64,000 nucleotides of DNA, taken from Polyangium aurulentum (GTDB lineage Bacteria; Myxococcota_A; Polyangia; Polyangiales; Polyangiaceae). This document shows positions 258-63,154 of this stretch, in pieces. Positions within the stretch are counted from its first letter, which is position 1. Each line of letters starts with the position of its first letter. The notes below the pieces were generated by a model. That model was given only the letters and a program-made list of their open reading frames with translations. It was not told the origin of the DNA and did not search any database. The translations under genes were made by a program, and so were the position numbers. The stretch spans positions 1 through 64,000 of the forward strand of contig CAMCKZ010000003.1 of the NCBI GenBank assembly GCA_945875545.1, read 5' to 3'.

Positions 258-1982
258 TCACATGCGTTCGATGGCCGTGAGGCCCAATAGCGTGAGCCCG
301 CATCGCAATTGTTCGGCGGTGGCCGCCGCGAGCCCCAGTCGGCTCTCGCGCGTCGGACCGTCTGCCTTTAGAACCGGGCAAGCCTCGTAAAACCCTGAGA
401 ATACCCTGGCAAGATCGTACAAGTGGTCGCACAGCAGATGCGGCTGCGACGTCTCGGCGGCGGCGTGAACCACGTCTCCGAACGCCGCCAGACGCTTGCC
501 GAGTTCGCGCTCCTCGGGCGTTTCAAGAAGTACCGCGCCGCCGAGGTAGTTCGCCTTCTCGAGCCCGCCCTTGCGAAAAATGGACAGCACGCGAGCATGT
601 GCATACTGCACGTATGGCCCGGAATTCCCCCTGAAGCTAATGAGCTTGTCCCAGGAAAAAACGTAATCGCTCGTGCGATTTTGCTTCAGATCGGCCCACT
701 TCACCGCGCCTATCCCGACCGCGCGCGCCGTCGCAGCAATCTCTTCTTCCGGCACGTCGAGTTCCTCTTCGCGAATGCGCGCGGCGGCCCGGGCCTCGGC
801 CTCGTCGAGCAACGAAGCCAGCGTGATGGCCTTTCCGTCGCGCGTTTTGAGAGGCTTGCCGTCTTCGCCGAGCACGCTCCCGAACGACACGTGGTCAAAC
901 CGCTGGGGCAAACCCAGAAGCTTGGCGACCGCGAAAACCTGTTTAAAATGAAGGGCTTGCCGCGCATCTACTACGTACACATTGCGCGTCGTCTTGAGCT
1001 CGCGGTCGCGGTAAAGGGCCGTTGCCACGTCCGTCGATGCGTACAAAAAAGCGCCGTCGCGCTTCTGGACAATGAACGGCTCTTTCACTTTCTTGAGGTC
1101 CGCGGGGGCTGCCTCGAGTTCCGCAAAAAAGATGCAGAGTGCACCTTCATCGTGCCGCGCAATGCCGCGCTCTTGGAGGAGCGTGCAAACGCCCGCGAGC
1201 ATCGGATCGAAAAACGATTCCCCCATCCACAGGTCGAAGGTGACGCCCAAACGCGCGTAGAGAACGTCCAAACTTTTGCGCGTAACCTCGATAAAACGCT
1301 GCCAAAGCGCGCGGTTTTGCGCGTCGCCGGATTGCAACTTCGCGAGCTCGGCGCGGGCCTCGGAAGCCACCGATTCGTCTTCTTTCGCCGCGGCCGTCGC
1401 GAGTTTGTAGACCCGCTCAAGCTCCTCGATTGGCGTCTGCTGAAGGGCCTCGTCGCTCCCGAACCGGCGCATACCGACGATGAGGAGGCCGAACTGCGTT
1501 CCCCAATCGCCCAAGTGATTGTCGCCGAGAACCTCGTGCCCGACGGCGCGAAAGAGGTTCACGACCGCCGCCCCAAGAATGGTGGAACGCAAGTGCCCCA
1601 CGTGCATTTGCTTGGCAATATTCGGGCTGGAATAGTCCACGACGATTTTTTCGCGCCGCTCCGCCGCCTCGACAACGGTGCCCAGCGCGTGCGCCTCAAG
1701 CTCCGCCCCGAGCCACGACGGCGCCAGGCGCAGGTTCACGAAGCCCGGCCCCGCGACCTCCACTTTCTCAAAGGCGCTTTCTTTTTCGAGCTCCCTCGCC
1801 ACGGCCTCCGCCAGCTCGCGCGGGTTCTTTTTCTCGCGCTTGGCAAACGGAAGAAGGCCGTTGAGCTGAAAATCTCCGTGTTTCGCGTCGGCCGTGGCGC
1901 GAACGATGGGGTCCACCTCCACCGCTAGGGCCGCGTGGATAGCTTTTCGGGCGAGGGCTTCGAGGGTCCGTTCAAGGCGCAT
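258..1982 (-). CDS. argS: Arginyl-tRNA synthetase
   Basis: Class I aminoacyl-tRNA synthetase that charges tRNA-Arg in the cytoplasm. The 574-residue product has the usual family length. An N-terminal Add1-like tRNA-binding region (about residues 1-90) precedes the catalytic core. The HIGH-type motif reads HVGH (127-130), preceded by VDYSSPNIAKQ. The KMSKS position has the degenerate ArgRS form KTRDG. The DALR anticodon-binding domain carries QYAHARVLSI, and the C-terminus ends in a typical ERM. The ATG at 1982 starts the conserved N-terminus; the frame stays open upstream into accC, but that part is not ArgRS-like. accC ends 85 bp upstream and carB follows. A copy of the TGCA-NNN-TGCA palindrome lies at 600-610. 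Confidence 0.95.
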   Translation of the reverse strand: MRLERTLEALARKAIHAALAVEVDPIVRATADAKHGDFQLNGLLPFAKREKKNPRELAEAVARELEKESAFEKVEVAGPGFVNLRLAPSWLGAELEAHALGTVVEAAERREKIVVDYSSPNIAKQMHVGHLRSTILGAAVVNLFRAVGHEVLGDNHLGDWGTQFGLLIVGMRRFGSDEALQQTPIEELERVYKLATAAAKEDESVASEARAELAKLQSGDAQNRALWQRFIEVTRKSLDVLYARLGVTFDLWMGESFFDPMLAGVCTLLQERGIARHDEGALCIFFAELEAAPADLKKVKEPFIVQKRDGAFLYASTDVATALYRDRELKTTRNVYVVDARQALHFKQVFAVAKLLGLPQRFDHVSFGSVLGEDGKPLKTRDGKAITLASLLDEAEARAAARIREEELDVPEEEIAATARAVGIGAVKWADLKQNRTSDYVFSWDKLISFRGNSGPYVQYAHARVLSIFRKGGLEKANYLGGAVLLETPEERELGKRLAAFGDVVHAAAETSQPHLLCDHLYDLARVFSGFYEACPVLKADGPTRESRLGLAAATAEQLRCGLTLLGLTAIERM

Positions 1983-2067
1983 GGCGTTGGACCGCGGATA
2001 ACACGACGCCGCGCGAAAAACGCGTTCACGCCACGCGAAAAACGGGGCCCCAAGCGAGGCGGCGTCG

Positions 2068-3486
2068 TTAGATTTTTGCCGCTGCCCACGCCCGCGCAAA
2101 CGATTCTGCAAACCGTGTGTCGTACTTGCCTGAGGCAAATTCCTCGCTCCGAAGCACGGCACGAACAAACTCGGTGTTCGTCGTGCATGGGCCGATGACG
2201 CTCGATTGCAGCGCGTTGGCGAGCGCCAGCAGGGCCTCCGGGCGACTCTCGGCCCAGGCGACAACCTTTGCCAACATGGGGTCGTAATACGGCGTCATTT
2301 TGTTCCCAGCGACGACTCCGGACTCAATGCGAATGCGTGCATTCTGCAGCTCTCCGGCGCCGCCGCACCACGACAGCGTGTCGATCGCTCCGGGCTTTGG
2401 GGCGAAACCCTTGGCCGGATCTTCCGCGTAGACGCGCGCCTCAATCGCATGCCCACGCCTCGGGAGCGTGGACCAATCTGGCAGCTTTTCTCCAGCGGAA
2501 ACCCGCAATTGCCACTCCACGAGGTCCAGCCCCGTGACCATTTCGGTCACCGGATGTTCCACTTGCAGGCGCGCATTGACCTCAAGAAAATAGAAGTCAC
2601 CGTGGTCATCGGCGATGAACTCGCACGTGCCGGCTCCCACGTAACCGACCTGCCGCACCACGCGAAGCGCGGCATCAATCAGCCGTGCCCGACGCGCATC
2701 GCCTTCGGCACCCTGAAAAAACCACGCCGGCGACGGCGACTCTTCGACGATCTTTTGATGCCTTCGTTGCAGACTGCACTCACGTTCGCCGAGGGCAAAA
2801 AGCTGCCCGTGGGTGTCGCCGAAAATCTGAACTTCGATGTGCCGAGGCTCGGGCACGTAGCGTTCCAGGTACACGCGATCATCGGAAAAAGACGCGGCAC
2901 CGCGATTTGAACAGCTCTCGAGCGCCTTGGCGAGGCCACCTGGCTCCTTCACGATCTGCATGCCGATGCCGCCCCCACCGCCAACGGCCTTCACCAAAAT
3001 CGGGTAGCCCACGCGGGCGGCCGCAGCGAACGCTTCGTCGCGGCCCTCCGGGGTGCCGAGAGCGATGGGCTCGTTCACCCCGGGCACCGGCAGCACACCC
3101 GCGGCGATTGCAACTTGCCGCGCCTTCATCTTGTCGCCGAAAGCCTCGAGCATGGCCGGCGTCGGACCCACAAACGCCGCACCGGCCTCGGCCACAGCTC
3201 GCGCAAATGCTGGTTTTTCGCTAAGAAAACCGTACCCCGGGTGAACAGCATCGGCGCCGGACTGCTTCAGCACGTCCAGCAACAAATCGATGCGCAGGTA
3301 GCTGTCTTTTGGGGCGGGCCCGCCGAGCGGAAACGCTTCGTCGGCTTCGCTCACGTGGGGCAAATCCGCGTCGGCCGGAGAATACACAGCGACCGTCTTC
3401 ACGCCGAGCCGCTTGCACGTGCGCATCACGCGGCGGGCGATCTCGCCCCGGTTCGCAACGAGAACTTTTTGAAAGGGCGCGGTCAT
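2068..3486 (-). CDS. accC: Biotin carboxylase (acetyl/propionyl-CoA carboxylase subunit)
   Basis: ATP-dependent carboxylation of biotin on a carrier protein, the first half-reaction of acyl-CoA carboxylases. At 472 residues it is a free-standing biotin carboxylase: the N-terminal fold opens with KVLVANRGEIARRV, the ATP-grasp glycine loop reads KAVGGGGGIGM, and catalytic/biotin-site motifs EVNARLQVEHPVTE and a C-terminal AEDP segment are present. There is no biotinyl (AMKM) domain, so the carrier is encoded elsewhere. It could serve acetyl-CoA or a propionyl/methylcrotonyl-type carboxylase; sequence alone does not decide. Two copies of the dispersed palindrome (2338-2348, 2768-2778) lie inside. 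It follows topoisomerase VI A after a 53-bp gap. Confidence 0.9.
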   Translation of the reverse strand: MTAPFQKVLVANRGEIARRVMRTCKRLGVKTVAVYSPADADLPHVSEADEAFPLGGPAPKDSYLRIDLLLDVLKQSGADAVHPGYGFLSEKPAFARAVAEAGAAFVGPTPAMLEAFGDKMKARQVAIAAGVLPVPGVNEPIALGTPEGRDEAFAAAARVGYPILVKAVGGGGGIGMQIVKEPGGLAKALESCSNRGAASFSDDRVYLERYVPEPRHIEVQIFGDTHGQLFALGERECSLQRRHQKIVEESPSPAWFFQGAEGDARRARLIDAALRVVRQVGYVGAGTCEFIADDHGDFYFLEVNARLQVEHPVTEMVTGLDLVEWQLRVSAGEKLPDWSTLPRRGHAIEARVYAEDPAKGFAPKPGAIDTLSWCGGAGELQNARIRIESGVVAGNKMTPYYDPMLAKVVAWAESRPEALLALANALQSSVIGPCTTNTEFVRAVLRSEEFASGKYDTRFAESFARAWAAAKI

Positions 3487-3539: not shown

Positions 3540-4949
3540 CTAGACGATCCAGTCATTTTCCCTCAGTTTACGAGGGATATACTCTTCGGTGACGAAGCTG
3601 ATGCTTTTGGTCAGAAGGGCGTCGAGTTCCATCTTGAAGCCGTTCGAGAGGAGCTTGTCGATCTCGCGCTGCCATCGCTTTTCTTTGAACCACGGGTACG
3701 CCTTCATCTGTTCGGCGCGCGTGATGTCTTCCTTGGAAAGCTTGATGGTGGCGGCGGGGGTGAGCTTGAACTTGTCGTAATCGAAGGCGCTCATTCCGAG
3801 AAAGCGCACGCCCGGCACCGCGAGGCGCATGGACTCAAAGGCAAGGTTTATGGAGCCCTGTTTGAGGACCGAATAAATGTAGAGTCCCCACGGGTCGTTA
3901 TCGACGAGAATGTAGATGGGAAGTTTCAGTTCCATGGCCATTCGCTGGAGCAAACGCCGCGCACCCCGCGCCGCTTGCCCTTCGCTGGTCATGAGAATGC
4001 AGTCATTTTTTTCCCAAAATCGGTCTTCGTTGAGGCGGTGAAAGATGGCCTGCTTCTCGACGAGCATGATGAATTTCGCCGTCGTGCGCTTGAACTTCAG
4101 GTGCTCCTCTTCGCAAATACTTGGAATGCCCCATCCGCCTCGTCCCATGCGCGCCAGATCGATTTCATCGCCCGCGTCATCGACCACGAGGCGGCCCACG
4201 ACGAGGCCGCGCCGGTTGGCAAAGAGGTGAAGTTCTTCGCGAAGGGCGTCGATGGTGACCTCCAGGTCTTCGATCACCGGGTCGCTCTCGGCCTGATCAT
4301 CGAAGGTATTTTCCTGGGTTCCCTTGATGGTGTGCTTCGACATGTAGAACATCTGGCGGATGCTGATCGTCTTGCCCTCTTCGATCAGCGTCTTCACGCC
4401 GTTGGCGACGAGAAAGCTCTGCATGAATTTTTTCGCCATGTTGATGTTGAAAAATTCACGCGACAGGGTCTTGTCCCCAAGCTCGATGATCCCCCGTTTG
4501 GGGTTGTAGGCAATGTTCGAGAGCGAACGATGCTTCATCGTGAGGGAAGGTTGCCCACTCGCATCAAGCTCGGACAGAACCTTGCTCGCCATGCGCTCGA
4601 TTTTCTCCATCGTCCGCGCATCCACGCCCTTCAGGACTTTCACGGCGGTTTGCGTATCGGCAAGCATTTTTGCCTCCGTTAGCGCCTTGGCGCCGCGCTT
4701 CTTTGCCGCGGCAGGTGCAGACTGCACGGGTTCTACCGACGCGGCTTTTGCTCCACCTTTCTTTGCCGCGGCAGGTGCAGACTGCACGGGTTCTACCGAC
4801 GCGGCTTTTGCTCCGCCCTTCTTCGCCGCGGCGGGTGCAGGCGGTACGGCCTTTTCAGACTCGGTTTTTGTTGCGCGCGTCTTCGGCACGATGGGTGCAG
4901 ACTGCACGGTACTAGGCGGCGTCTTTCGGTCGGACTTTTTCATGGGCAT
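3540..4949 (-). CDS. DNA topoisomerase VI subunit A (Spo11-like)
   Basis: Cleavage subunit of the type IIB topoisomerase, an A2B2 enzyme that passes one DNA duplex through another. About 90 N-terminal residues are Lys/Ala-rich with 20-residue repeats. The winged-helix (CAP-like) domain follows, with SIRQMFYMSK; Tyr202 is the expected catalytic residue (R-x-x-F-Y pattern of Spo11/Top6A). The Toprim domain shows FIMLVEKQ (Glu297) and VDNDPWG (Asp349/Asp351). The C-terminus EYIPRKLRENDWIV is typical. Its ATG shares one base with the stop of subunit B (TGATG), so the two are translationally coupled. Topo VI is standard in Archaea and patchy in bacteria. The first methionine is used; Met3 is also possible. 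Confidence 0.93.
   Translation of the reverse strand: MPMKKSDRKTPPSTVQSAPIVPKTRATKTESEKAVPPAPAAAKKGGAKAASVEPVQSAPAAAKKGGAKAASVEPVQSAPAAAKKRGAKALTEAKMLADTQTAVKVLKGVDARTMEKIERMASKVLSELDASGQPSLTMKHRSLSNIAYNPKRGIIELGDKTLSREFFNINMAKKFMQSFLVANGVKTLIEEGKTISIRQMFYMSKHTIKGTQENTFDDQAESDPVIEDLEVTIDALREELHLFANRRGLVVGRLVVDDAGDEIDLARMGRGGWGIPSICEEEHLKFKRTTAKFIMLVEKQAIFHRLNEDRFWEKNDCILMTSEGQAARGARRLLQRMAMELKLPIYILVDNDPWGLYIYSVLKQGSINLAFESMRLAVPGVRFLGMSAFDYDKFKLTPAATIKLSKEDITRAEQMKAYPWFKEKRWQREIDKLLSNGFKMELDALLTKSISFVTEEYIPRKLRENDWIV
4699..4860 (-). repeat. 60-bp tandem repeat in the topoisomerase VI A gene
   Basis: Two almost identical 60-bp units (about 4699-4758 and 4759-4818), a partial third, and a diverged copy up to 4907. 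Each unit encodes a 20-residue Lys/Ala-rich block (APAAAKKGGAKAAS then VEPVQS). The good units and the diverged copy each carry an exact GTGCAGACTGCAC (4715-4727, 4775-4787, 4895-4907). The palindrome in the unit ending near 4860 has decayed. This looks like in-frame expansion by slippage or recombination. Confidence 0.9.
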
Positions 4950-6727: not shown

Positions 6728-6846
6728 TGGCGGCGGGACGTACGGCCAAGTGCACCCGCTTGTCAACGCACGGCCGGCTCTGTTCGAGACAAGGGTCCAC
6801 GGTGCAAGACCATGACGCGGCGCCCGTGACCCGATAGGATTCGGGG

Positions 6847-10770: not shown

Positions 10771-13395
10771 ATGCCCAACGAAACCTCGAACGCCCCGCTT
10801 CAAAAGGTTCCTGTCTCGATTCAAGACGAGCTGAAGACGAGCTACCTCGATTACGCGATGAGCGTCATCATCGGCCGCGCGATCCCCGACGTGCGCGACG
10901 GCTTGAAGCCCGTGCATCGCCGCATTTTGTTCTCGATGTACGAGCAAAAACTCGGGCCAACTGTTGCTCACCGCAAGAGTGCGAAGGTCGTCGGAGACGT
11001 GCTCGGCAAGTACCATCCCCACGGCGATTCCAGCGTCTACGACGCCATGGTGCGTTTGGCGCAGCACTTTTCGATGCGCTATCCCCTCGTCGACGGCCAG
11101 GGAAACTTCGGCTCCATCGACGGCGATTCGGCGGCCGCCTACCGCTACACCGAGGCACGTCTGTCACGCGCGGCGATGGAGCTGCTCCACGACCTCGAGA
11201 AAGATGCCGTTGACTTCGCGGAAAACTTCGATGGCTCCGAAGAAGAACCCACCGTTCTTCCGGCGCGCATTCCGAACCTCTTGGTGAACGGCTCCGGCGG
11301 CATCGCCGTCGGCATGGCGACGAACATTCCGCCGCATAATCTCAACGAAGTCGTGACGGCGGCCATCCACTTGGTCCGCCATCCGAATGCCTCCGTCGAC
11401 GACCTGATGACGTTCATTCCGGGCCCCGACTTCCCGACAGCCGGCCTCATTTACGGCCGTGCGGGCATCCTCAGCGCCTACCGCACGGGCCGCGGCTCCA
11501 TCATCATGCGCGCGCGCATTGAGGTCGAGCGCATTCCGGGCAAGGGCGAGCGCGAACAGCTTGTCGTCCACGAGTACCCGTACCAAGTCAACAAGGCGCG
11601 CGTCGCTGAGCGCATTGGCGAATGCGTCAAAGACAAGCGCATTGAGGGCATCTCAGAGATCCGCGACGAGTCCGACCGCGACGGCATTCGGTTCGTTCTC
11701 GAGCTGAAAAAAGACGTCATTCCGCAAGTTGTCATCAACCAGTTGTACCGCCTGACGGACCTCCAAAAGTCTTTCGGCGTCATCAATCTGGCCATCGTCG
11801 CCGGGCGTCCCGAGGTCCTCGATTTGAGGCAGACGCTCCAGTGTTTCGTCGACCACCGACGCGACGTCGTGACCCGCCGCACGCGCTTCGAGCTTCGCGA
11901 GGCGGAGTCTCTTCGCGAACTTGTGGAGGGCTTGGGCATGGCCACCACCGAGATCGATTTGGTCGTCCGAACGATTCGCCAGAGCCCCGATCCCGACACC
12001 GCGCGCCAGCGCCTGATGGCCCTGCCGCTCCACGGTCTTGAAGAGTTTGTGCGCCGTGCGGGCCGGCCAGAGAGCGAAATCGAAGAGGCCCTAAAGCAGC
12101 AAGATTACAGGCTTTCCGAGCGTCAGGCGAAGGCCATCTTGGAGATGCGCCTGTCGAAACTCACGGGTCTCGAACAAGAAAAACTCGCCACCGAATACGG
12201 CGAACTCTGCGAGCGCATCGCCTACCTCAAGGGCATTCTCGGTTCCGAGTCGAAGCTCATCGAGGTCATCATCGGCGAGCTCGAAGAGATTCGTGCAAAA
12301 TACACGGATCCACGCCGCACCGAAATCGTGGCACAGGGTGCCGAGATCGACGACGAAGACCTCATTCAAGAAGAAGAGATGGTCGTCACGATTTCGCACG
12401 CGGGGTATGTCAAGCGAACACCCGCGGCAACCTACGTCGCGCAAAAACGCGGCGGTCGCGGCAAAATCGGCATGGAAGCTCGCGAAGAAGATTGGGTGAC
12501 CCAGCTCTTCATCGCCTCCACGCACGCTTACGTTTTCTTCTTTTCGAACGTCGGCAAGGTCTACGTCAAGAAGGTCTACGAAATTCCCCTCGCGCCTCGC
12601 ACCTCCAAGGGCCGCGCGATCGTGAACTTCGTGGGCATGGAAGTGGGCGAAAAAGTAGCGGCGATCGTCGCGGTGCCCGTGATCGAAAAAGGAAAGTTCC
12701 TCGTCACCCTGACCCGCAAGGGCCAGATCAAAAAGACCGAGCTCGACGAGTACGAGAACTTCCGCGAAAAGGGCATTATTGGCGTTAAAATCGAGGGCGA
12801 CGACACGCTGCTTTCGGCCGCGCTTACAAACGGCTCGAACGAATTTCTCATCGCAACCAAGCACGGCATGTCGATACGCTTTTCGGAAGATCAGGTTCGT
12901 GCCACGGGCCGCGCCACGATGGGCGTGAAGGCCATCGAACTCGACGACACCGACGAAGTTGTGGGCTTCACCGCCACGGACGGCGAACGCAATCACATCT
13001 TGGCCGTGTGCGGACGAGGCTTCGGCAAGCGCACGCTTCTTGAGGAATTTCGCACACAAAATCGCGGCGGCAAGGGCATCATTCTCATCGATGCCTCGGA
13101 CCGCAACGGGCCCGTCGTTGACATCAAACTCGTCGGCCCCGGCGACGAAGTGATGTTCGTGACCGACCGCGGTCAGACCATTCGCACCCGCGTCGACGAG
13201 ATTCGCGAGACCGGCCGCAACGCTCAGGGCGTGCGCCTCATGACCCTCGACGAAGGCGAACGCATCGTGGCCTGCGAACGCCTCGCGGAGAAGGACGACG
13301 ACCTGCCCGCGGGCGAGGCCGGCACCGCCGGATCCCCAGACAATTCGCAGGCAGAAACCTCCAGCGACGCGGGCCCGGATCCCAAGCTGAACTGA
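10771..13395 (+). CDS. gyrA: DNA gyrase subunit A
   Basis: Cleavage subunit of gyrase, which introduces negative supercoils with GyrB. The N-terminal domain carries the quinolone-region motif [12 protein letters not shown] with Ser and Asp at the sensitive positions, and the catalytic tyrosine in [11 protein letters not shown] (Tyr126). The C-terminal beta-pinwheel has a GyrA-box, QKRGGRG, supporting gyrase rather than topoisomerase IV. The ATG at 10771 is chosen; a TTG at 10741 in frame is less likely. The C-terminal tail is Glu/Asp-rich. gyrB is not in the window. Its product coexists with topoisomerase VI encoded 4 kb away. Confidence 0.96.
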
Positions 13396-15338: not shown

Positions 15339-16112
15339 ATGGCTTCCGAACCTGCGATCATTTTCGCGGAGCGCACCGAGGGCGTCTACCCGATCAACGT
15401 CGATGCTGTTCTGCTCGGCGCATTTCTTTTCGACCTGAAAGCGCCCCGAACCCGCCGCCACGCGGTGGATCTCGGGTGCGGCTCCGGCGTCATCGGGCTT
15501 CAACTATTGGCCGCGTGCCGTTTCGATCGCGTGACGTTCGTGGACGTGCATTCTGCAAGCATCTCAAGTGCCATGGCCAGCGTAGAAGCTTCCGCATTCA
15601 GTCATCGTGCCGACTTCGTGGCGACCGATGCCCGCGCATACGCAGACACTCAGAAGGGCATAGCCAATCTCGTTGCTATCAATCCACCGTATTTCGAACC
15701 GCATACGGTAACACTTTCACCGTCAGCCGACAAAAACCGAGCGATCAGCGGTTCTCTTCCCCTTTTTCTGCGCGCAGCTCGTCAGCTTCTCGGGCGCGCC
15801 GGCCGCGTCGTGTTGGCCTATCCGGCCGCGCGTTTCGATGCGTTGCTCGTCGAATCGGTGCGCGTAGGCCTCGTGCCAAAGGTCGCGCGTTTCGTTCACG
15901 GACGCGCCGGAGAGCCCGCGCGCCTCGCGCTGGTAGCCTTTGCCGCGGGCGGGCTCGGCGGCCTGAGGGTGCTTGAGCCCCTCGTGGAGTGGGAGGCTAG
16001 CGGCGGAGACGCGAAGCTCCGCCCCGCAATGACCGGCGAATACCAGGCAATTCTCGCGCGGTGGCGCCGGTGGATTGGCGTTCCTCCGAACGAAAACCGC
16101 TCTATAGCCTGA
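15339..16112 (+). CDS. tRNA1(Val) (adenine37-N6)-methyltransferase-like protein
   Basis: Class I SAM-dependent methyltransferase of 257 residues. The SAM-binding motif reads VDLGCGSGVIGLQLL and the N6-adenine motif IV reads AINPPYF, the TrmN6/YfiC signature. The N-terminus YPINVDAVLLGAF matches the family form in which the start of the protein senses SAM and substrate. ATG at 15339 is chosen because conservation begins there; the open frame extends upstream to 15225. Its 3' end overlaps the convergent gene at 16102 by 11 bp. The N6-adenine activity is inferred from family; another RNA target is possible. A TGCATTCTGCA palindrome lies at 15547-15557. Confidence 0.78.
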   Translation: MASEPAIIFAERTEGVYPINVDAVLLGAFLFDLKAPRTRRHAVDLGCGSGVIGLQLLAACRFDRVTFVDVHSASISSAMASVEASAFSHRADFVATDARAYADTQKGIANLVAINPPYFEPHTVTLSPSADKNRAISGSLPLFLRAARQLLGRAGRVVLAYPAARFDALLVESVRVGLVPKVARFVHGRAGEPARLALVAFAAGGLGGLRVLEPLVEWEASGGDAKLRPAMTGEYQAILARWRRWIGVPPNENRSIA

Positions 16113-16845: not shown

Positions 16846-17045
16846 GAAACGGACTCCAAAGGCGCCCGGGACGCGGGCTTAAGACGGAAACGGTGGCTGT
16901 GGTCGTCGGGATTCTCGGCGCGGACGTGGCAGGCGAAACCCGGAAAGTAAGGTGCAGACTGCACGGACGTACACTGGCCGCGACCGGGCGCGTAAACCCA
17001 CATTTTTTCCTGGTCGACGTGATCGGCGCGCGGCCAAAAACTCAT
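16842..17045 (-). CDS. Small hypothetical protein coupled to the next gene
   Basis: A 67-residue frame starting MSFWPRADHVDQEKMW; a GTG-type extension to 17078 is possible. I do not recognise a family. Support for coding is threefold: its TGA overlaps the ATG of the next gene as ATGA, its third codon positions are mostly G or C like its neighbours, and it fills what would otherwise be a 240-bp gap inside a tightly packed operon. It contains two Cys and several His (QCTS, GFACHV, DDHSH), suggesting a possible metal site. An exact GTGCAGACTGCAC at 16952-16964 encodes part of SVQSAP. Confidence 0.55.
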   Translation of the reverse strand: MSFWPRADHVDQEKMWVYAPGRGQCTSVQSAPYFPGFACHVRAENPDDHSHRFRLKPASRAPLESVS

Positions 17046-27720: not shown

Positions 27721-27752
27721 GGGGTGCGTGCATCATGCATGCACCTCTTTTT
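27721..27752 (+). terminator. Rho-independent terminator after der, formed by the dispersed palindrome
   Basis: The stem pairs 27721-27731 with 27737-27747 (two G-T pairs) around a 5-base loop and is followed by TTTTT. It lies 22 bp after the der stop and 33 bp before the end of the convergent ArsA-like gene. The core TGCATCATGCA belongs to the dispersed TGCA-NNN-TGCA family. Confidence 0.7.
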
Positions 27753-47116: not shown

Positions 47117-49165
47117 TCAGCGCGAAGCCCGACGAGCGCGTTCCGCACTGACGGCGCGCCCGTTAACGACTTGGCGAGAAAGGGCTTCAATAACCTTCTC
47201 CGCCGAGGCTGTGCGCACCGCCACAAAACTCGAGGTGTCGCGCACCCGCACGTGACCTACGTCGGCGGCACTTACGCCGCCCTCGCCGGTGATGAGGGCC
47301 ACAAGCTCGGTGCCTTTGAGGCCATCGCGGCGGCCCACATTCACGAAGAGTTCTTGGAAGTCTTCGGCGCCGCCCGCGGGCGATTCGGCCTGCGCGCCGG
47401 CGTCGTCGAGGCGCATAGGTTCCGCTTCGCCCTCGATTCGAGCTGTGATCGCGAAGGGCTCGGCGCTCTGGTCATTTGCAGGGAATGCGCGTTCGCGTGG
47501 CCTGCGTGCGGGCCGCTCTGCGCCTTCGGATCGCTCGCGCGGCAAACGCTCTCGGCGCTCCTTAACGGGCGGCGCTGCAGGACGTGCTGGCGAGGCGTGC
47601 CCCGCCGTGAACAGCGCGGCTGCCGCTGAGGGCGGCTGTTGTGGCGGTGGCGCTCCAACGCGGCCCCTCGGCGACGCTCCGCGCCTTGGTGCCTCAAGGG
47701 CGCCGCCACCACCACCACCACCCTCCTTGGTGCCATCTGTGGCCTCCACGGCCTCGCTGGGCGGCGGCAAACGGGCACGGCGAGCCTCGGTGGCCTCCGT
47801 CTGAACTTCGCGCCCCATGGCCGCCTTGGCGCCCAAATGTTCGCGGAGCAATGCGGCCACCACGCGCTCGGCGTCGTCGTGGCTAAGGAGGCGCCGCGCG
47901 AGGGCCAAGTCGCCGTCTTCCAAGCGATTTTCGGCGTACGCATCGACGAAGAAACGCATGAGATCCGCCTCTGCGCGCGTCGCCATGTCGTGGGCCGACG
48001 GGAGCTGCTTTTCGACGGGGCGAAGCTTGTACACCAGACGCAACGCATACAGGTGCTGGATGTCTTTGGCCCCGATGAGCGAGATGGCCGTTCCGGTGCG
48101 GCCCGCGCGCCCGGTGCGCCCGGTGCGATGCACATAGGCCTCGGGACTCTCTGGAAAGTCGGCGTTCACGACGTGCGTGACATGCGAAACATCGATGCCG
48201 CGCGCGGCCACATCGGTGGCCACGAGAAATCGCGTTTTGCCCTCTCGAAGGCGGCCCATAACCCGTTCACGCTCTTTCTGCTCCAGATCGCCGTTTAGCC
48301 AATCTGCCGAGTACCCGGCCTTGCGCAAGCTCTCGGCGATGCGCTCGGTTTCGTCTTTGGTGTTGCAGAATACAATCGCGCTTTCCGGGTCTTCGATTTC
48401 CAAAACACGCAGCAAATCGCTGCGTTTATCGCTGAGCGCCATGTAGACGATGTGCGTGATGGAGAGGGCTGCGGCGTGATCGCCCGAGAGCGTGAGGAAC
48501 TCCGGATTGCGCAGCTTTGATTTCGCCATGCGCTCGATTTCGGGAGGCACCGTGGCGCTAAAAAGCAGCGTCTGACGACTCGCGGGGAGGCGCTCTTGAA
48601 TCGACTCGAGTTCGCGCGCGAAGCCCATGGAGAGCATTTCGTCGGACTCGTCGAGGACGAGCACGCGCAGCTCTTTGGGTTCAAATGTTCCGCGCCGAAG
48701 GTGATCGAGCACGCGGCCCGGGGTGCCAACGACGATGGCGACGCCTTGCTCCAAATCGGAAACCTGTTTGCCCATCGCCGCGCCGCCGTAAAGGAGTGCG
48801 AGACGCGTGCCCTTGAACTGCGCCAAGCGCTCGATCTCGCCCGCGACTTGAATGGCCAATTCGCGCGTGGGGCAAAGGATCAGCGCCTGGGGCAGTGAGG
48901 CCTCGGGGCGCACCAATCGGTCGATCAGCGGCATGGCGAAAGCCGTGGTTTTTCCCGTGCCGGTGCGCGATTGCACCAGCATGTCGCGGCCCGCCGTGGC
49001 CACCGCCCACACGTCGCGTTGGACGTCGGTGGGCGTCTCGTAGCCCATCGCGTCGAGGGCCTTCAAGACCTCGGCAGAAAGCCCAAGCGAAGCGAAGGTA
49101 GCGGGGGGCGAAACAGGGGCCGCAGCGGGCGGGGTGGACGGGACGGACGAAGATTCTAGCGACAT
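47117..49165 (-). CDS. DEAD-box RNA helicase with DbpA-type RNA-binding domain
   Basis: ATP-dependent RNA helicase of 682 residues. Motifs: Q motif at FASLGLSAEVLKALDAMGYE, Walker A SRTGTGKTT, Ia PTRELA, motif II DESD (variant of DEAD), SAT, and the C-terminal lobe motif VI HRTGRTGRAGR. A Gly/Pro/Arg-rich disordered region follows, then a C-terminal RNA-binding domain (LFVNVGRRDGLKGTELVALI) like DbpA/CsdA. Cold-shock or ribosome-assembly roles are inferred from family. Start ATG at 49165; it overlaps the end of a small membrane-protein gene by 10 bp. Confidence 0.88.
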   Translation of the reverse strand: MSLESSSVPSTPPAAAPVSPPATFASLGLSAEVLKALDAMGYETPTDVQRDVWAVATAGRDMLVQSRTGTGKTTAFAMPLIDRLVRPEASLPQALILCPTRELAIQVAGEIERLAQFKGTRLALLYGGAAMGKQVSDLEQGVAIVVGTPGRVLDHLRRGTFEPKELRVLVLDESDEMLSMGFARELESIQERLPASRQTLLFSATVPPEIERMAKSKLRNPEFLTLSGDHAAALSITHIVYMALSDKRSDLLRVLEIEDPESAIVFCNTKDETERIAESLRKAGYSADWLNGDLEQKERERVMGRLREGKTRFLVATDVAARGIDVSHVTHVVNADFPESPEAYVHRTGRTGRAGRTGTAISLIGAKDIQHLYALRLVYKLRPVEKQLPSAHDMATRAEADLMRFFVDAYAENRLEDGDLALARRLLSHDDAERVVAALLREHLGAKAAMGREVQTEATEARRARLPPPSEAVEATDGTKEGGGGGGGALEAPRRGASPRGRVGAPPPQQPPSAAAALFTAGHASPARPAAPPVKERRERLPRERSEGAERPARRPRERAFPANDQSAEPFAITARIEGEAEPMRLDDAGAQAESPAGGAEDFQELFVNVGRRDGLKGTELVALITGEGGVSAADVGHVRVRDTSSFVAVRTASAEKVIEALSRQVVNGRAVSAERARRASR

Positions 49166-52176: not shown

Positions 52177-53534
52177 TTGCAGACTGCACGGGCAAGGCGC
52201 GCGCCAAGGCGAGCCCGGGCCACATCGAATTCGCGAACAGCGAGGGAAATTTCAGCCTGTCTGCGCGCCGCGGCTGCCGTCACAATCTCCAGACTTGACC
52301 CCCGACCCTCTTCCAATCCGCGCGTCGTGAGGGCTTCAAGTTCCGCTGCGAGGTCGCGGCTTTTGGTGGCCACTTGGAGCGAAGTTTCTGCCACGCCGAC
52401 CGCACGCTGAGCCTGCGCCACTTGAATCGTGGCCTGACGCGTGACGAGCTCCCGGGTGACTCGCGACGACGCCTCGAGGGCCAGCGCCGAAGCTTTGGCC
52501 CCGTAGCGCGCGCCCCCATCCCAGAAAGACCACGCGACCATTGCTTGTACATTCCACGTAGTATTGGGAAGCGTCGGTTGCTCCAGGCTCGTGGTGGCCA
52601 CCTGCGACTGCGCTGAAAGCGTTGGCAACCATTGAAGGCCGACGGCCGTAACGGCGCGATGGGCAATGACTTCATCGAGGGTTGCCGCCGCGATATCCGG
52701 GCGCATTTCCAGGGAACCATCCGTACATACGGCGGCTGCTGCCGTCTCCAGATCCTCGATCCGAAGGGCATCGTCCACGCCCACCGGAACCTCCAGACCA
52801 AGAGCCAGTCCGAGCGCCTCGCGTGTTTGCCGCAACTGCTCGTCGCCGGTCACCCAGGTCGCGCGCGCCGCCTCCACATCTTGCTCCACGCGCAAAACAT
52901 CGAGGCCACTCGCTGCTCCCATTTCGGCCCTGCGCCTGACGAGCGAAAGGCGATCACGTGCAGACTGCACGCCATTGCGATTGAGCTCGCTGACACGCTC
53001 CGCGGTGACGACGGAGAGAATCGCCTGCGCCGCATTTGTGAGCACCACGCGCCGCGCGTCTTCTTCCGCGAGACGCGCACTGTCTTCCTGACGAGACGCG
53101 GTTCCGATCTGGAAAATCGCTGGTGCCGAGAGCAGCGGCCAGCTCGCCACGAGCGCCACTTGGGCGTAGTTTTTCGTGGGCTGCTCGAGGATGATGACCG
53201 TCGGATTTCCCGCAGCATCGAGACGCCCGAGCGGCATCGTTTTGGTCACAAGTTGGTGAACGCCGGCCGACGTGCCCTGAAGTGACGGAAGAACTCCGGC
53301 CCACGCGCTGCGCACCAGACCACGCTGCTGATCGACGCGTGCCCTGGCCCGCCCAAGCTCGGCGGAGTGGGTGCGGATCAAGGTCAGAGCCTCGGACCAT
53401 TGGCGCAACATTCGAGCCGGCGGAGGCACCGCGGGCAACGTCTCGTCGGTCGCCTGGGCCTCGCGCGGACTCGGCGGTGCAGCCAGGGAAAACGCACACG
53501 AGATGGAAGCCAACAAGAAAACCGACACGCGCAT
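52170..53534 (-). CDS. TolC-family outer membrane efflux protein (second)
   Basis: A 454-residue paralogue of the convergent gene. Signal peptide MRVSVFLLASISCAFSLAAP; then ALTLIRTHSAELGRARARVD and the internal repeat with LVRRRAEMGAASGLDVLRVE, typical of TolC. The C-terminus RAVCNY is encoded across an exact TGCAGACTGCA palindrome (52178-52188) that also sits at the end of the opposite gene; a second exact copy is at 52959-52969. The two proteins are diverged, so they are probably separate channels. Confidence 0.8.
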   Translation of the reverse strand: MRVSVFLLASISCAFSLAAPPSPREAQATDETLPAVPPPARMLRQWSEALTLIRTHSAELGRARARVDQQRGLVRSAWAGVLPSLQGTSAGVHQLVTKTMPLGRLDAAGNPTVIILEQPTKNYAQVALVASWPLLSAPAIFQIGTASRQEDSARLAEEDARRVVLTNAAQAILSVVTAERVSELNRNGVQSARDRLSLVRRRAEMGAASGLDVLRVEQDVEAARATWVTGDEQLRQTREALGLALGLEVPVGVDDALRIEDLETAAAAVCTDGSLEMRPDIAAATLDEVIAHRAVTAVGLQWLPTLSAQSQVATTSLEQPTLPNTTWNVQAMVAWSFWDGGARYGAKASALALEASSRVTRELVTRQATIQVAQAQRAVGVAETSLQVATKSRDLAAELEALTTRGLEEGRGSSLEIVTAAAARRQAEISLAVREFDVARARLGARLARAVCNY

Positions 53535-55376: not shown

Positions 55377-55393
55377 GCTCTCTGTCCTAGGTG

Positions 55394-56875
55394 TCACCGC
55401 AGCGGCGAACGCGAGGTCAACTCACGCCGCAGCTCGGTCAGTTCACTGCACTCTGCATCGATCGCAGCGGCCGAAGCCGCCTCACGTTCCGCGTTCCGCA
55501 GCATACCCTGACGCAAGTACGCCCGCCCAAGAAGTGCGCGAAATGCTGCATTTTTTGGGTCCAAAAGGACCGCCCGGCTTGCACAGCGGAGGGCCGCGCT
55601 GCCGTCGACGATGCCTGCCGCCTCCTCCATTCGCAGAATCGCGGCTGCCGCGTCGCCCTGCACCACGGCGTCATCGGGTGCCCGCTGGGCGGCCTCTTCC
55701 CAAAAGGTCAGCGCCTCGGCGGGATGGTTTGCGTATTCCGCCCGCTTGGCGAAGTATGTGTAGTGTTTCCCGACCTCGCTTCCGCCGAGACTCTCGGCTT
55801 TGGCGAGGCCACGAATGACGTCGGCGCTCTCAGGTTCAAGGCCTTGTGCCAGTCGAAAAAATTGCAGCGCTTCCGCCCCTTGTGAAGCGGCGAGCGAGGC
55901 TTCGCCCTGAAGCACGAGGGTGCGCACTTTCTCGGCTTTTGCCAGGGGAATAATACCTTCGTAGCGGCGCCGTAGGTCGGCTATCGCCTGCGCGGTCGCC
56001 TCCTCGTTGGGTGCCGAACCCGGAGCCCACAGGGCCGGCGGAGGCGAACTTGGAGGCGACCCGGAGAGCGCCGGGGCCGACCCCGCGTTGCGACCCAATT
56101 TTCGCGCGAGGGTGAGACCCGAAGGCGGACCCGACACGTCAGTGATTCGCCCCGACGCGGCGTCGAGGACGTCCGTGATGCGTTCCGACGGGGAAGCGTC
56201 GTCGAGGGCTGGGGCGGAGGCCCGTTCGGCGACCACCACCGGCCGCGTGCGCGTTGAACCGGACGACGTTGCCACAGCGCGGGGATTCGTTGCGGGCTCG
56301 TCGCCTTCGTCCAAAGATGCGTCGTAGTGGGCTCGCCTTTCCACGTGCGAAAGCGTAAAGTGAGCATCTTCGATGGCAGCAAAAAGCCTAGTGATAGTGT
56401 CGCCGTCGGCGCCCAGCGAGCGACCGAAAAACCTGTCTGGATGGAGCGACGCAACGAGCTCGTAGTAGGCGTCTTTGATGGCCCGACGCTCGGCACCGAT
56501 GGGCACGCCAAGGAGCACATAGTGGTTCGCCAAGAGCAGGCGCGCTTCAAGGCAATCGAGCAACGTGCGTTCTTCGGCACTGATCTGACTCGGGGCGGCG
56601 GCATGAAGCTCCGCAAGGGTCGGCTTCGCTGGGTGGGCGCCGGAAGGCCTCGCCGCGGGCATCAGCGAAGAACTGCCGAAGACCTGTATGGCCCCAAGTT
56701 TCATCAGGAGGTCAAGAGCCGATCGCACGACCTCTTCGCCGAGACCCGTGCCCATCACGATATCGTCTTCGGTGCAGTCTGCATCAACACGTGACAGCAC
56801 AAAACCCTCGAGAGGAGTGAGGGGCAGGGCCTTGAGAACGGGGCCAGAAAGGGCGGTCGACGCGTATCTCTTCAC
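55394..56875 (-). CDS. J-domain protein with TPR-like C-terminus
   Basis: A 493-residue co-chaperone-like protein. A winged-helix-like N-terminus (PLEGFVLSRVDADCTEDDIV) is followed by a J-domain around residues 115-190: HYVLLGVPIGAERRAIKDAY and the HPD motif in SLHPDRFFG. A disordered Ser/Pro/Thr region follows, then helical repeats (SDVIRGLAKAESLGG, YANHPAEALTFWEEAAQRAP) like TPRs. It precedes the Hsp70 gene with a likely GTGA coupling, so it probably delivers clients to that Hsp70. Two palindromes lie inside (55447, 56773). Confidence 0.82.
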   Translation of the reverse strand: MKRYASTALSGPVLKALPLTPLEGFVLSRVDADCTEDDIVMGTGLGEEVVRSALDLLMKLGAIQVFGSSSLMPAARPSGAHPAKPTLAELHAAAPSQISAEERTLLDCLEARLLLANHYVLLGVPIGAERRAIKDAYYELVASLHPDRFFGRSLGADGDTITRLFAAIEDAHFTLSHVERRAHYDASLDEGDEPATNPRAVATSSGSTRTRPVVVAERASAPALDDASPSERITDVLDAASGRITDVSGPPSGLTLARKLGRNAGSAPALSGSPPSSPPPALWAPGSAPNEEATAQAIADLRRRYEGIIPLAKAEKVRTLVLQGEASLAASQGAEALQFFRLAQGLEPESADVIRGLAKAESLGGSEVGKHYTYFAKRAEYANHPAEALTFWEEAAQRAPDDAVVQGDAAAAILRMEEAAGIVDGSAALRCASRAVLLDPKNAAFRALLGRAYLRQGMLRNAEREAASAAAIDAECSELTELRRELTSRSPLR

Positions 56876-58109: not shown

Positions 58110-61100
58110 ATGTCGAAAAATAGCGGTGTTCCATCCGGAGTCAATGCGCCCGCCAGCGAGATCGGAACGATTCTCGCGCAACGCTACGAAGTGATGCGCG
58201 AGGTCGGGCGCGGCGGCATGGGCGTTGTGTACCTGTGCCGCGACCTGGTGACCGGCGAGCGCGTGGCGCTGAAACGCCTGCGAAAACCCGAGGGCGACGC
58301 CCAGACGCGCCCGGAAGAAACGTGGTGGTTCCAGCAAGAAGCGCGCGCCGTCGCGTCGCTCGATCACCCGTGTGTCGTCGGTGCCCGCGACTTTGGCAGC
58401 CTCGAAGATGGGTCGCCTTACCTCGCCATGGATCTTCTTCCGGGAAGAAGTGTTCACGAGTGGATGTATATTACACATATGACGTGGCCGGTGATTTGGT
58501 TCCTGATGGACCAATCTCTCGCGGGCCTCGCGCATGCGCATGCCCGCGGCATCATTCACGGAGACTTGAAGCCGTCGAATATCATGCTCGATATCCCCAC
58601 GAGCGATCGCGCACCGCGAGCATTTCTACTGGATATGGGCCTTGCTTGGCTCCGTCGCACCGGCCATGATCCGCGCCTCGATGGGGCCCAAGCTCCGAAG
58701 GTGATGGTGCATGCAGGTGCCGGAACGGTGGGGTGGGTTGCGCCGGAACAGATTCGAAAAGCCGTCACCCTCGTGGGGCCTCCCACCGACCTCTACGCGC
58801 TTGGGTGCATTCTCTATCGAATTCTCGTCGGAAAAGAGGTCTTCGAGGGCGAGGCCCAAGAGGTGCTTCGCGCCCATAAAAGAGCACCGATTGCGGAGTT
58901 TGTGTTGCCGCCCGAAGTGCCCGCGGGTGTCGACACATTCATCCGCCGACTGCTCGCGAAAAAGCCCTGGGACCGCTACGAATTCGCCGCCGACGCTCGG
59001 CGAGACTGGTGGCATTTGCGCCCCGAGCTGCCTGCCACATGGGAGGCCGCGAGCTTGGCGCTTGGCCAAGAAAAGCCCGCAGACCGCGAAGCCCGCGCTG
59101 TGCGTGCCGCGCGTTCCCTCGCGCCGGGTCTCTTGTCGCTTCGCCCCGCGCCAATGATCGGACGCCGCGTGGAGCGCGAGCTGCTCCTGCGCGAAGTCAC
59201 TGAAATGGTTGAAGATCCACGGGCCGCCCTTAAGCTGTTTATCCTCGTCGGCGACGCGGGGGTTGGCAAAAGTCGGGTGGCCGAATGGCTTTGCGAAACC
59301 GTTCACGAGCAAGGCCTGATGCACCCGCTTCGCGCCCGTTACGGCCGCGTACCGAGCCCGATCGACGGCATCACTTCGGCCGTGAGTGCACACTACAACC
59401 TCGAGGGTGCAGACCGCGTGGTGCTCGAACAGTCGCTCATGGGGCGATGGAGCGTGGACCTCGACGACAACGAGGCCCTGACGTGGGTAGCGGCCACCGC
59501 GGAGTGGCTGCGCCCCAGCGTTCCAGGCCAGTTTGAGCCTGTCGGCCCCACAGGCAAACGCTTCGTCCTCGACCGACCTGAACTGCGTTGGCTCGTCGCT
59601 CGCCGCGTATTTGAACGCATCGGAAAAGATCGCCCCGTACTCCTTTGGCTCGACGACCTTTTTCAGGCCTCGTCGACCACATTCGACATGCTGACGCGGC
59701 TGCGAAAAGACAACCCCGCTATCCGATTGCTGGTCGTCGCAACGGCGCGCCGCGAAGCGCTCTTGAGCGACATCGATATCGCCCTACGGATGGAGGCCCT
59801 CCGCGCCGATTGGCAAGGCGAAGTCCTGGAGATGGAGCCCCTCGACGCCGAGGAAACCAACACGCTTTTGCGCGCCACCCTGCCCCTCCACGACGAGGCC
59901 ACGGAACGCGCCGCGAGCTCGAGTGGGGGCAATCCGCTGTTCGCCCTCCAGCTCCTTCACGCGTGGTCCGGAGGCGGCTACTTGCGCCTTGAAAAGGGCC
60001 AGTACCGCGTGCCTGAAGAGGCCCTTGAGGGGCGCGCGATGACCACCACGGAGCTCTGGGATGAACGCCTTCGCGCCGTGCCCACCGAGCAGCGAATTGG
60101 TGCCTACGCAACGGCCTCCATCGGCGACGATATTCGCGGTGTGGTGCTGCGGCCGCTGCTCTCTGCACTGGGCCTTGACCCGCATGAAACCCTGCTTTCC
60201 CTCACGCGCGCGCAAATTCTCATTGCGTCCGGTGCCGACCGTTTTCGCTGGCCCCATGCCCTCCTGCAGGAGCACCTTTCGGGGCGCCTCACGGAGCGCG
60301 CCGATGCGCCCGCGATCTACCGCCTCGCGGCCAACGCGCTTGAAGCCCATCCCACCGTGGGTTCGCGCCGCATCATGAAACTTCGCGTGAGCAACTTGCT
60401 CCGGGCGGGCGACGACGAACTCGCGGCATCGTTGATGCTGAAGTTCACCGCCGATTCGTGGAGTCGTTCGCGGGATGCGCGGGCAGTCCTCAAGGATCTC
60501 GACATCTTGTCGTCGCGTGTGAGTGGCGCGAACGAAGCCGAATACAACCACTGGCGGGCCGAGGCATTGCGCCACGCGGGCCGTGTGATTGAGGCACGCG
60601 ACGCAGCGAAAAAGGCCCTAATCGTGTGGGAAAGAATGGCCCAGACCGCGAAGGCGGCGGCCACGCGAAGGCTCCTCGGGCACATCTCCTCCGACCTCGG
60701 CGCGCCGGGCCAGGGCCGCGACGACGTAACCGATGCGATCAAGACTTTCGAGAAGCTCGGCGACACGCGCGGGCTCATTGGGGCCATGGTCGTCCTCGGC
60801 GAAATTGATTACCTCCTCGGCGAGCATGCGCGCGCGCGTGAAACGATCCGCGATTGCATGCGCAAAGCGGAAACCGTCGGCGACAGACTTGTGCGCGCCC
60901 AGGGGCTCTTGCTCCTCGCTCTCATCGAGACCGCGGCGGGGCGTCACGAGCAAGCCTCGCGCTACACCCTCGATGCGCGCGAATCGTTCGAGAGCATCGG
61001 TTACCGCCTCGGAATGGCGCAGTCCGATGTGGTCCTCGCGCACGCAGAATTCCGGGCATTTCGCTACGATTCCGCGCGCTCGCGGGCAGAACAAGCGCGC

Positions 61101-62005: not shown

Positions 62006-62029
62006 GTGGCCCCATTTCCTAGCGTCGAT

Positions 62030-63154
62030 CTACCGCCGCGGCCGACCAGCGATACGAGAAATAGCCTGCAACGCGCCGTCAACAATACGGTCCGTCGTGC
62101 CCGGGCCTAGGCTCATACGAATACTGCTCTTGGCGCGCGCCACACTGTGCATCGCCGCGATCACGGGGGAAGGCTCCAGCGTCCCCGCGCTGCAGGCGCT
62201 TCCGCTCGATACCGCGACGCCTTCCACGTCAAGGGCCACGACGAGTTCCGCGCCGTCGAGCCCCGCGACCGCCACGTTGCTCACGTGCGCGAGGCGCAGC
62301 GCCGGATCCCCGTTGACCTCACTGCCCGGAAACGCCGACAGCACGTGGGCCTCCAGTCGGTCGCGCGACGCTCGCTGGGCTGCGAACCCCGCACGGCATC
62401 GATGGCGCTCTTGGAGAGCCGCCAGGAAGCCCGCGGCGGCCATCGGATCGAGTGTGCCGGGCCGCAGTCCCTTCTCTTGAGCGCCGCCCAAAAGCACCGG
62501 GTGAAGGCGATGACCGCAGGAGCTCACCACGGCACCAATACCCTTGGGCCCTTGGAATTTGTGCGCTGCCAGCGTTCGCGTTGTTCCGAGTAACGGAACT
62601 TCCATACGACCAAAAGCCTGCACCGCATCCACGTGAATGGGCACCCCGGCATGCATGCACTCTGCATGCATTTCTTGCACCGGCTGCACCACGCCCGTCT
62701 CCTGGTTCACCGCTTGCAACGTCACGAGGCGCACGCCCCCGCGCCGGAGCACCTCGCGCACGTTGCCCACATCAATGAGGCCCGCGGCGCTGACGGGCGC
62801 CCAGTGGACCTGCGCGCGCCCTTCGCGTTCGAGCGCCTCGGCGACGCGGGTGACCGACGGGTGTTCCAATCGGCTCGTGATGAGCACCCCGCGCGCCTCA
62901 ACAAATGGGGAACGAATCGCGATGTTGTTCGCCTCGGTGCCGCTTCCGGTGAAGAGCACATCTTGCGGCGCAGCCTCCATGACTTGCGCAATTTTTTCCC
63001 GCAAATCTTCAAGGATTCGTCGCGCCAAACGCCCGGCGCGGTGCACGCTCGACGGGTTCGCCCCGGCCCTTTGACTGGCCGCGACCATCGCCGCAAGCAC
63101 GCCCTCCCCGAGCGGCGTTGTGGCGTTCCAATCAAGGTACGCGAAATCATCCAT
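62030..63154 (-). CDS. Cysteine desulfurase (NifS/IscS-like)
   Basis: PLP enzyme that takes sulphur from cysteine for Fe-S clusters or thio-nucleosides. The 374-residue product starts YLDWNATTPLGEGVL. PLP Lys lies in LAAHKFQGPKGIGAV, the catalytic Cys in SSGSACSAGTLEPSPV, and FTGSGTEANNIAI is the cofactor cup. No scaffold (iscU) is adjacent, so the client pathway is unknown. ATG at 63154 overlaps the end of the histidine kinase gene by 8 bp. A 19-bp palindrome at 62652-62670 encodes part of EMHAECMHAG. Confidence 0.9.
   Translation of the reverse strand: MDDFAYLDWNATTPLGEGVLAAMVAASQRAGANPSSVHRAGRLARRILEDLREKIAQVMEAAPQDVLFTGSGTEANNIAIRSPFVEARGVLITSRLEHPSVTRVAEALEREGRAQVHWAPVSAAGLIDVGNVREVLRRGGVRLVTLQAVNQETGVVQPVQEMHAECMHAGVPIHVDAVQAFGRMEVPLLGTTRTLAAHKFQGPKGIGAVVSSCGHRLHPVLLGGAQEKGLRPGTLDPMAAAGFLAALQERHRCRAGFAAQRASRDRLEAHVLSAFPGSEVNGDPALRLAHVSNVAVAGLDGAELVVALDVEGVAVSSGSACSAGTLEPSPVIAAMHSVARAKSSIRMSLGPGTTDRIVDGALQAISRIAGRPRR

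Follow-up and report, generated by a model that had tools for sequence, protein, structure and literature searches.

To our knowledge, few lineages carry words that recur a thousandfold and reshape coding sequence, and what one such word, highly iterated palindrome 1 (HIP1) of cyanobacteria, does is still debated. Known protein-binding sites also offer comparisons: matS, GTGACRNYGTCAC, is the site of MatP and is confined to the terminus domain, and the Fis site is GNNYR-N5-YRNNC. HIP1 and the alternate HIPs of cyanobacteria are palindromes occurring about once per kb genome-wide, which some relatives lack or have exchanged for another word (PMC4390886). HIP1 itself is a contiguous octamer, GCGATCGC, tied to methylases acting on its inner sequences. 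Here we describe an interrupted palindrome, TGCANNNTGCA, in the first 64 kb of a Polyangium aurulentum contig (CAMCKZ010000003.1; this whole stretch is called the window below) and in the 3.52-Mb genome that holds it (G000). The word recurs about every 2 kb, some twenty times above chance, in one myxobacterial group. Like the HIPs, it is a palindrome iterated genome-wide and patchy among relatives. Unlike HIP1, it is a spaced dyad with A/T flanks extending to 12 bp and graded specificity, and its host belongs to the Myxococcota. A first-pass annotation of the window had likened the word to HIP1 or uptake sequences and knew of no description of it. The likeness is upheld by the genome-wide iteration and by a density and conservation like those of the DNA uptake sequences (DUS) of Neisseria and the uptake signal sequences (USS) of Pasteurellaceae, and nothing relevant was found in the open-access literature: TGCANNNTGCA was not found there, TGCAGACTGCA gave unrelated titles among the matches listed, and 'TGCA-N3-TGCA' gave one match, which by its title concerns Vibrio anguillarum.

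Enrichment and anatomy of the palindrome

Where the annotation reported at least 27 copies with about one expected by chance, we counted 28 exact copies of TGCANNNTGCA in the window, whereas dinucleotide shuffles held 0.94 on average (5 in the largest of 100). The excess is spacer-specific, with 28 TGCA pairs at N3 and 0-8 at each other gap from 0 to 40. A genome-wide count close to the Markov expectation, or enrichment confined to the window, had been named beforehand as reasons to give the motif up. Genome-wide, TGCANNNTGCA occurs 796 times compared to 42 for the reversed pattern, which excludes enrichment confined to the window. When all pairs of four-base words separated by 3 bases were counted in 461 kb of G000, the search ranked TGCA/TGCA (113 vs 6.5), TGCA/TACA (84 vs 3.9) and TGTA/TACA (19 vs 0.5) highest; the motif is therefore TGYANNNTRCA, and the TGCA-NNN-TGCA first proposed is real but too narrow, as both halves need not be TGCA. 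This broader motif has 38 sites in the window, 28 of which are of the TGCA form, and 1682 in the whole of G000, where the reversed pattern occurs 81 times and the same halves at N6 58 times.

Site anatomy, spacing, gene placement and Markov tests are based on a 1.254-Mb sample, 36% of G000. The sample contains 605 TGYANNNTRCA sites, compared to Markov means of 30.8, 26.8 and 29.7 for orders 3, 4 and 5 (6 simulations each), so the count is far from the expectation that had been set as a refutation. Of the sites, 503 are coding copies, against 30.4 under synonymous-codon shuffling within genes (largest of 20 shuffles, 40), and 177 coding sites are divided 86/82/9 over the reading frames, the rare frame being the one that forces Cys. 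Both results bear out the annotation's suggestion that the force acts on DNA rather than protein. A palindromic word this far above the Markov expectation across the genome is a HIP-like property. The word is not a contiguous palindrome like the HIP1 octamer, being interrupted by N3, and even the top contiguous 6-base palindromes of G000 exceed Markov by no more than 1.1- to 1.7-fold. Among all 64 palindromes of 6 bases, the PstI word CTGCAG is the most depleted, at 0.50 of Markov in the 1.254 Mb.

Alignment of the sites reveals a 23-25 bp dyad, AATGCGTGCA-KWM-TGCACGCATT, with the word as its core. Positions 9-12 from the centre lean towards A/T; they are followed inwards by C at -7, G at -6, TGYA and a KWM centre (W at position 0), and the other half mirrors this order. 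The information totals 18.9 bits over 25 bp, and sequence preference is small beyond ~12 bp from the centre. The 11 bp originally assigned to the motif are hence incomplete. One duplex version of the full motif is AATGCGTGCAGACTGCACGCATT. TGCA pairs are also in weaker excess at gaps 0, 7 and 11, as a flank of the form T(-9) G C R would lead one to expect.

The Y/R positions of the two halves are independent (298/133/119/55; chi-square p 0.93), consistent with a protein dimer that reads each half. In mRNA orientation, C-A mismatches (147) outnumber T-G wobbles (60) on the coding strand; together with the independent halves, this indicates that the stem is not selected and that no RNA or cruciform hairpin is involved. 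The inverted repeat, with its A-leaning left and T-leaning right flank, does resemble an RNA hairpin or terminator-like element with a TGYA/TRCA stem and a 3-nt loop, but such an element is contradicted by the lack of covariation and by the location of most sites inside genes, and we consider it exceedingly improbable.

The flanks of single-mismatch words were scored with a matrix trained on the true sites. Changes at T(-5) or G(-4) gave outer scores of -1.7 to -3.3, compared to a background of -3.0, with CGYA and GGYA slightly above background (p 0.03 and 0.02). Flanks of TGAA, TGGA and TGYG are intermediate, at 1.5, 1.2 and 0.7 compared to 3.0 for true sites (p 2e-6, 3e-4 and 2e-18). Specificity is thus graded, and the flank scores show that some real sites exist among TGAA, TGGA and TGYG words. 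A scan with the full weight matrix found 681 positions at a score of at least 12, compared to 23 in the reversed sequence. The outer score is 3.37, 2.80 and 2.11 for sites with 0, 1 and 2 T-halves, i.e. strong cores pair with strong flanks and no compensation is seen. The drop in count from 0 to 1 mismatch is sharp, and one-mismatch words are not enriched (0.78, 1.12, 1.10 and 0.88 of control in four samples). An apparent shortage of near-cognate words faded once baselines improved.

These properties bear on a serious rival, doubtful in our view, namely that the word is a DNA-uptake or self-recognition signal, with competent cells preferring DNA that carries it and recombination driving copies up, as for DUS and USS. 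The sharp drop at one mismatch would be expected of such a signal, and is put at 82- to 92-fold for DUES (PMC1939737). The flanks, which prefer A/T at a distance of about one helical turn, are reminiscent of the A/T segments of USS (PMC1626085). In contrast, one-mismatch forms are reported to stay over-represented in DUES (PMC1939737), and the DUS and USS cores quoted in these papers are asymmetric, whereas the myxobacterial word is an exact dyad with independent, symmetric halves.

Placement, turnover and distribution of the sites

Spacing between the sites is exponential, as expected of a Poisson process (580 gaps; coefficient of variation 1.04; Kolmogorov-Smirnov p 0.19), and the 25 contigs of the sample are homogeneous in density (chi-square 28.6, 24 degrees of freedom, p 0.24). 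This uniform spread sets the motif apart from matS, with which it shares a 5+3+5 dyad geometry and GTG...CAC ends. An even density of about 1 per 2 kb is also compatible with an uptake signal.

Genes were called by a simple codon-score script, which assigned 88.2% of the sampled DNA as coding. It placed 503 of the 605 sites inside genes, 10 partially inside and 92 outside, although it truncated the start of topoisomerase VI A and so labelled its three sites intergenic, and other 'outside' labels may err likewise. The annotation's statement that copies are mostly in coding DNA is correct, but the share is near proportional to the DNA called coding. No evident bias was observed along the gene (deciles of 13 to 24 among 177 sites, 10 of them within 100 bp of starts). 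Density falls from 639 per Mb in the lowest codon-score quintile to 294 per Mb in the highest. A 12-kb region without any site (C2:68000-80000, locus L113 and neighbours) holds ribosomal-protein genes, as judged by reading of the sequences.

The sites could be operators of an ordinary global transcription regulator: their anatomy is operator-like, and those outside genes are slightly denser (92/605 in ~12% of the DNA) and score slightly higher (19.40 vs 18.78, p 0.015). With most sites inside called genes and spread along them, this explanation is nevertheless improbable. For an uptake signal the placement is ambiguous: the motif is permissively located, as the quintiles illustrate, yet conserved, which is also reported for DUS, but the DUS of Neisseria are described as mainly intergenic (both in PMC2397512) while most sites here lie in genes.

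Sites were compared between genomes in one-to-one alignments (high-scoring segment pairs; those below 150 bases and overlapping ones were left out), with a shared site counted from both sides. Conserved occurrences number 12/24 (G002) and 10/21 (G001) at ~75% DNA identity, and 6/23 (genus g5) and 2/5 (G013) at ~69%. Over the four comparisons, 0/22 of the same halves at other gaps and 0/18 of other palindromes were conserved. For a TGYA that stands alone, conservation in G001 and G002 is 0.41, which would correspond to ~0.17 for a pair by chance. An indel touches only 1/24, 1/21, 4/23 and 0/5 occurrences in G002, G001, g5 and G013, respectively (6/73 in all). The sites therefore change mostly by substitution, and are conserved beyond controls.

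These alignments contradict the annotation's self-spreading micro-repeat. An inserting mobile micro-repeat or miniature inverted-repeat transposable element (MITE) would fit the high copy number and the three copies in one tandem repeat, but insertions relative to an empty site are not what the mostly gap-free orthologous positions display, and there is little sequence preference beyond ~12 bp from the centre; we regard it as most improbable. A high, even copy number gained without insertion does agree with DUS and USS. Unshared gap-free sites often differ at three or more of the 8 positions (7/11 in G002, 5/10 in G001, 14/15 in g5 and 3/3 in G013), as is reported for many recent DUS.

The distribution of the motif was determined in 108 genomes of the family and 377 sampled genomes of the phylum Myxococcota. 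For each family genome the TGYA/TRCA count at the N3 spacer was divided by that at N6, a genome being rich at a ratio of 5 or more, weak at 2 to 5 and null below 2. In the family, 27 genomes are rich (top ratio 37), 9 weak and 72 null, the last mostly at 0.5-1.5; since null genomes are near 1, gap 3 has no inherent excess. Three further samples, namely genus g5, G013 and the other two g1 genomes, have the same core together with its outer flanks. In G115 no excess is visible over 60 kb (4 at N3, 0-5 at other gaps), yet the whole-genome ratio is 3.4. Outside the family, none of the sampled genomes exceeds 489 copies. This count belongs to G351 and compares with 154 for the reversed pattern, the only pattern used for comparison there; the excess in G351 and relatives of family f45 is thus moderate.

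Two alternate iterated palindromes were considered and rejected: ACCC-N5-GGGT in G129 and GCCA-N4-TGGC in G026 owe 16/20 and 11/20 copies, respectively, to one tandem array each. A saturated phage was not found among viral contigs carrying the strict long form, which comprise 8 stretches with 1 to 6 sites each.

Candidate readers and the possible role of the motif

A HIP1-like origin, following Elhai's model, would have a palindrome-specific methylase and a repair or selective process accumulate the sites, as a by-product or for a function. The palindrome, its location mostly in genes and its patchy occurrence among relatives are all HIP-like. Furthermore, G000 encodes a YhdJ/CcrM-like beta-class N6A methylase (C1:48822-49766, L152) that is conserved in most of the family, with matches at E 1e-20 or better in 107/108 genomes. 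Its best NCBIfam match, well below cut-off (83 vs 292 bits), is PRK11524, which is YhdJ. YhdJ of E. coli methylates ATGCAT, which contains TGCA. All genomes of g19, g58 and g68 are motif-null, and their matches are at best weak (E of about 1e-28 to 1e-32, in g68 for two genomes); G135, also motif-null, has none. In a gene tree of the 30 best orthologs (all obtained by tblastn; G003, with a ratio of 1.985 and hence below 2 by N3/N6, was labelled weak there), the rich label requires 4 changes and is clustered (0/500 shuffles as low), but does not form one clean clade.

Against this, close YhdJ-like orthologs occur in the motif-null genomes G114, G032 and G004, which rules out this methylase as the sole cause. 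The G114 ortholog shares the putative recognition stretch, in a comparison where open reading frames were obtained by a simple rule for 21/30 loci (that of G122 looks like a wrong frame). Nor is ATGCAT over-represented in G000, at 0.88 of Markov. A MethyltransfD12 (Dam-type) match is found in 108/108 genomes (weak in G066, G123 and G025; 12 matches in G017), which suggests from sequence matches that core adenine methylation may exist in the family. The two methylase types occur in rich and null genomes alike; the search left out gamma-class enzymes (PF02384), and the methylase regular expression covered 36% of G000. Graded specificity and flanks reaching 12 bp fit a binding protein better than a methylase. 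Taken together, we find a HIP1-like origin unlikely. The presence of the competence protein ComEC in 100/108 family genomes is compatible with an uptake signal, but it is equally present in motif-poor genomes and does not track the motif.

We favour, with a probability of roughly 0.45, the reading that the 25-bp dyad is a chromosome-wide site for a dimeric architectural protein of the helix-turn-helix type. Four features speak for it: the dyad, the graded logo of 25 bp, the independent halves and the uniform density. The word would be the core of a 23-25 bp dyad read in double-stranded DNA by a homodimer, with GTGYA contacted in two major grooves on one face. The minor-groove positions that prefer A/T would lie at the centre and, on either side, roughly one turn away from it. 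Since A/T preference at these places, with major-groove contacts between them, is what a bending helix-turn-helix dimer is expected to produce, the reader is probably of this type and would bend DNA. Selection or a biased process may hold the density of sites (~1 per 2 kb over the sampled chromosome) rather than any given location, such that base substitutions would create and remove sites wherever the coding sequence permits. The most likely role would be that of a site-specific nucleoid or chromosome-organising protein of one Polyangiaceae-like group.

Several observations weigh against the architectural protein. We know of no nucleoid protein that uses thousands of high-information sites, and the 18.9 bits exceed by ~8 bits the 11.0 needed to mark that many places. 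The pairing of strong cores with strong flanks fits a drive toward consensus as well as binding, and the behaviour of the density alone would be the same for an architectural site and an uptake signal. The preference for W at the centre weakens in g5 and is lacking in G013, and the conservation counts are small. No tested gene (methylases, ComEC, MatP or Fis-type) explains the motif or names its reader. MatP (PF06303) was detected in 0/108 family genomes, with a positive E. coli control. The half-site GNNYR of Fis fits GTGYA, and A/T centre and flanks are common to both, but the motif differs in its N3 spacer and its fixed TG and A; a stand-alone Fis-type protein was not found in G000, where all 11 HTH_8 matches fall in frames of at least 468 aa. 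The rich genome G027 has one weak HTH_8 match in a 130-aa frame. The small basic proteins of G000 (27/907, stretch-end proteins left out) are by eye mostly ribosomal and contain no convincing reader.

Sites in the window and a wider view

The sites of the window are listed in the table. The preferred form GTGCAGACTGCAC is present three times in topoisomerase VI A, as annotated, but these copies are not independent, all lying in a 60-bp tandem repeat, one unit of which has a diverged copy. The repeat falls in an N-terminal part without matches to relatives (matches start at residue 82 or later). The further copies annotated in Der, a TolC gene and a small frame were recovered. Both subunits, A and B, of a bacterial topoisomerase VI are encoded in 3540-6766, the A subunit having relatives mostly in 'Deltaproteobacteria', Planctomycetota and Myxococcota metagenome-assembled genomes. 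In 52170-56875, there are two sites in the DnaJ-domain gene and two in the TolC-type gene, and the HSP70 gene between them has none.

Table. Motif sites and associated repeat in the 64-kb window.
Feature	Position	Strand	Context
TGCANNNTGCA site	600..610		in called gene 258-1982 (-)
TGCANNNTGCA site	1133..1143		in called gene 258-1982 (-)
TGCANNNTGCA site	2338..2348		in biotin carboxylase gene
TGCANNNTGCA site	2768..2778		in biotin carboxylase gene
60-bp tandem repeat, 3.6 units	4693..4909	-	N-terminal extension of topoisomerase VI A open frame; carries three sites
site, GTGCAGACTGCAC form	4716..4726		in tandem repeat, topoisomerase VI A open frame
site, GTGCAGACTGCAC form	4776..4786		in tandem repeat, topoisomerase VI A open frame
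site, GTGCAGACTGCAC form	4896..4906		in tandem repeat, topoisomerase VI A open frame
Y/R-form TGYANNNTRCA site	12294..12304		in called gene 10771-13395 (+)
TGCANNNTGCA site	15547..15557		in called gene 15339-16112 (+)
site, GTGCAGACTGCAC form	16953..16963		outside called genes, in open frame 16893-17666 (+), no Pfam match
Y/R-form site	17704..17714		in called gene 17645-18499 (-)
TGCANNNTGCA site	18838..18848		in called gene 18499-19041 (-)
TGCANNNTGCA site	19464..19474		outside called genes
TGCANNNTGCA site	22799..22809		in called gene 21413-24094 (-)
site, GTGCAGTCTGCAC (complement of preferred form)	27446..27456		in Der/EngA GTPase gene
TGCANNNTGCA site	27729..27739		outside called genes
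TGCANNNTGCA site	29877..29887		in DnaB helicase gene
Y/R-form site	30203..30213		in DnaB helicase gene
Y/R-form site	30425..30435		in DnaB helicase gene
TGCANNNTGCA site	32101..32111		in called gene 31741-32325 (-)
TGCANNNTGCA site	35443..35453		in S-adenosylmethionine methyltransferase gene (PF10672)
Y/R-form site	35802..35812		in amine oxidase gene
TGCANNNTGCA site	36851..36861		in amine oxidase gene
TGCANNNTGCA site	37648..37658		in called gene 37156-38109 (-)
Y/R-form site	39017..39027		in called gene 38106-39134 (-)
TGCANNNTGCA site	39784..39794		in 4Fe-4S protein gene
TGCANNNTGCA site	40126..40136		in 4Fe-4S protein gene
TGCANNNTGCA site	43966..43976		in cytochrome c554-like gene
TGCANNNTGCA site	45359..45369		outside called genes
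Y/R-form site	47050..47060		in FG-GAP protein gene
Y/R-form site	48364..48374		in called gene 47117-49174 (-)
TGCANNNTGCA site	52178..52188		in TolC-type outer membrane efflux gene
site, GTGCAGACTGCAC form	52959..52969		in TolC-type outer membrane efflux gene
TGCANNNTGCA site	55447..55457		in DnaJ-domain gene
TGCANNNTGCA site	56773..56783		in DnaJ-domain gene
Y/R-form site	58465..58475		in protein kinase gene
Y/R-form site	59387..59397		in protein kinase gene
TGCANNNTGCA site	62656..62666		in class V aminotransferase gene

The motif is a further case of a thousand-copy word, from another phylum and with a distinct architecture and a graded 25-bp logo. We put forward tentatively that it arose and was amplified within one family, many related genera being at background, and that it represents a new class of landmark: ~1,700-2,000 operator-grade 25-bp dyads per genome, mostly intragenic, by which a putative dimeric protein would organise or mark the whole chromosome. 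The rich, weak and null genomes form a natural comparison set within one family, which makes the cause findable, and that cause could tell if words of this kind are there for the architecture of the chromosome, for recognition of self-DNA or for repair linked to methylation.

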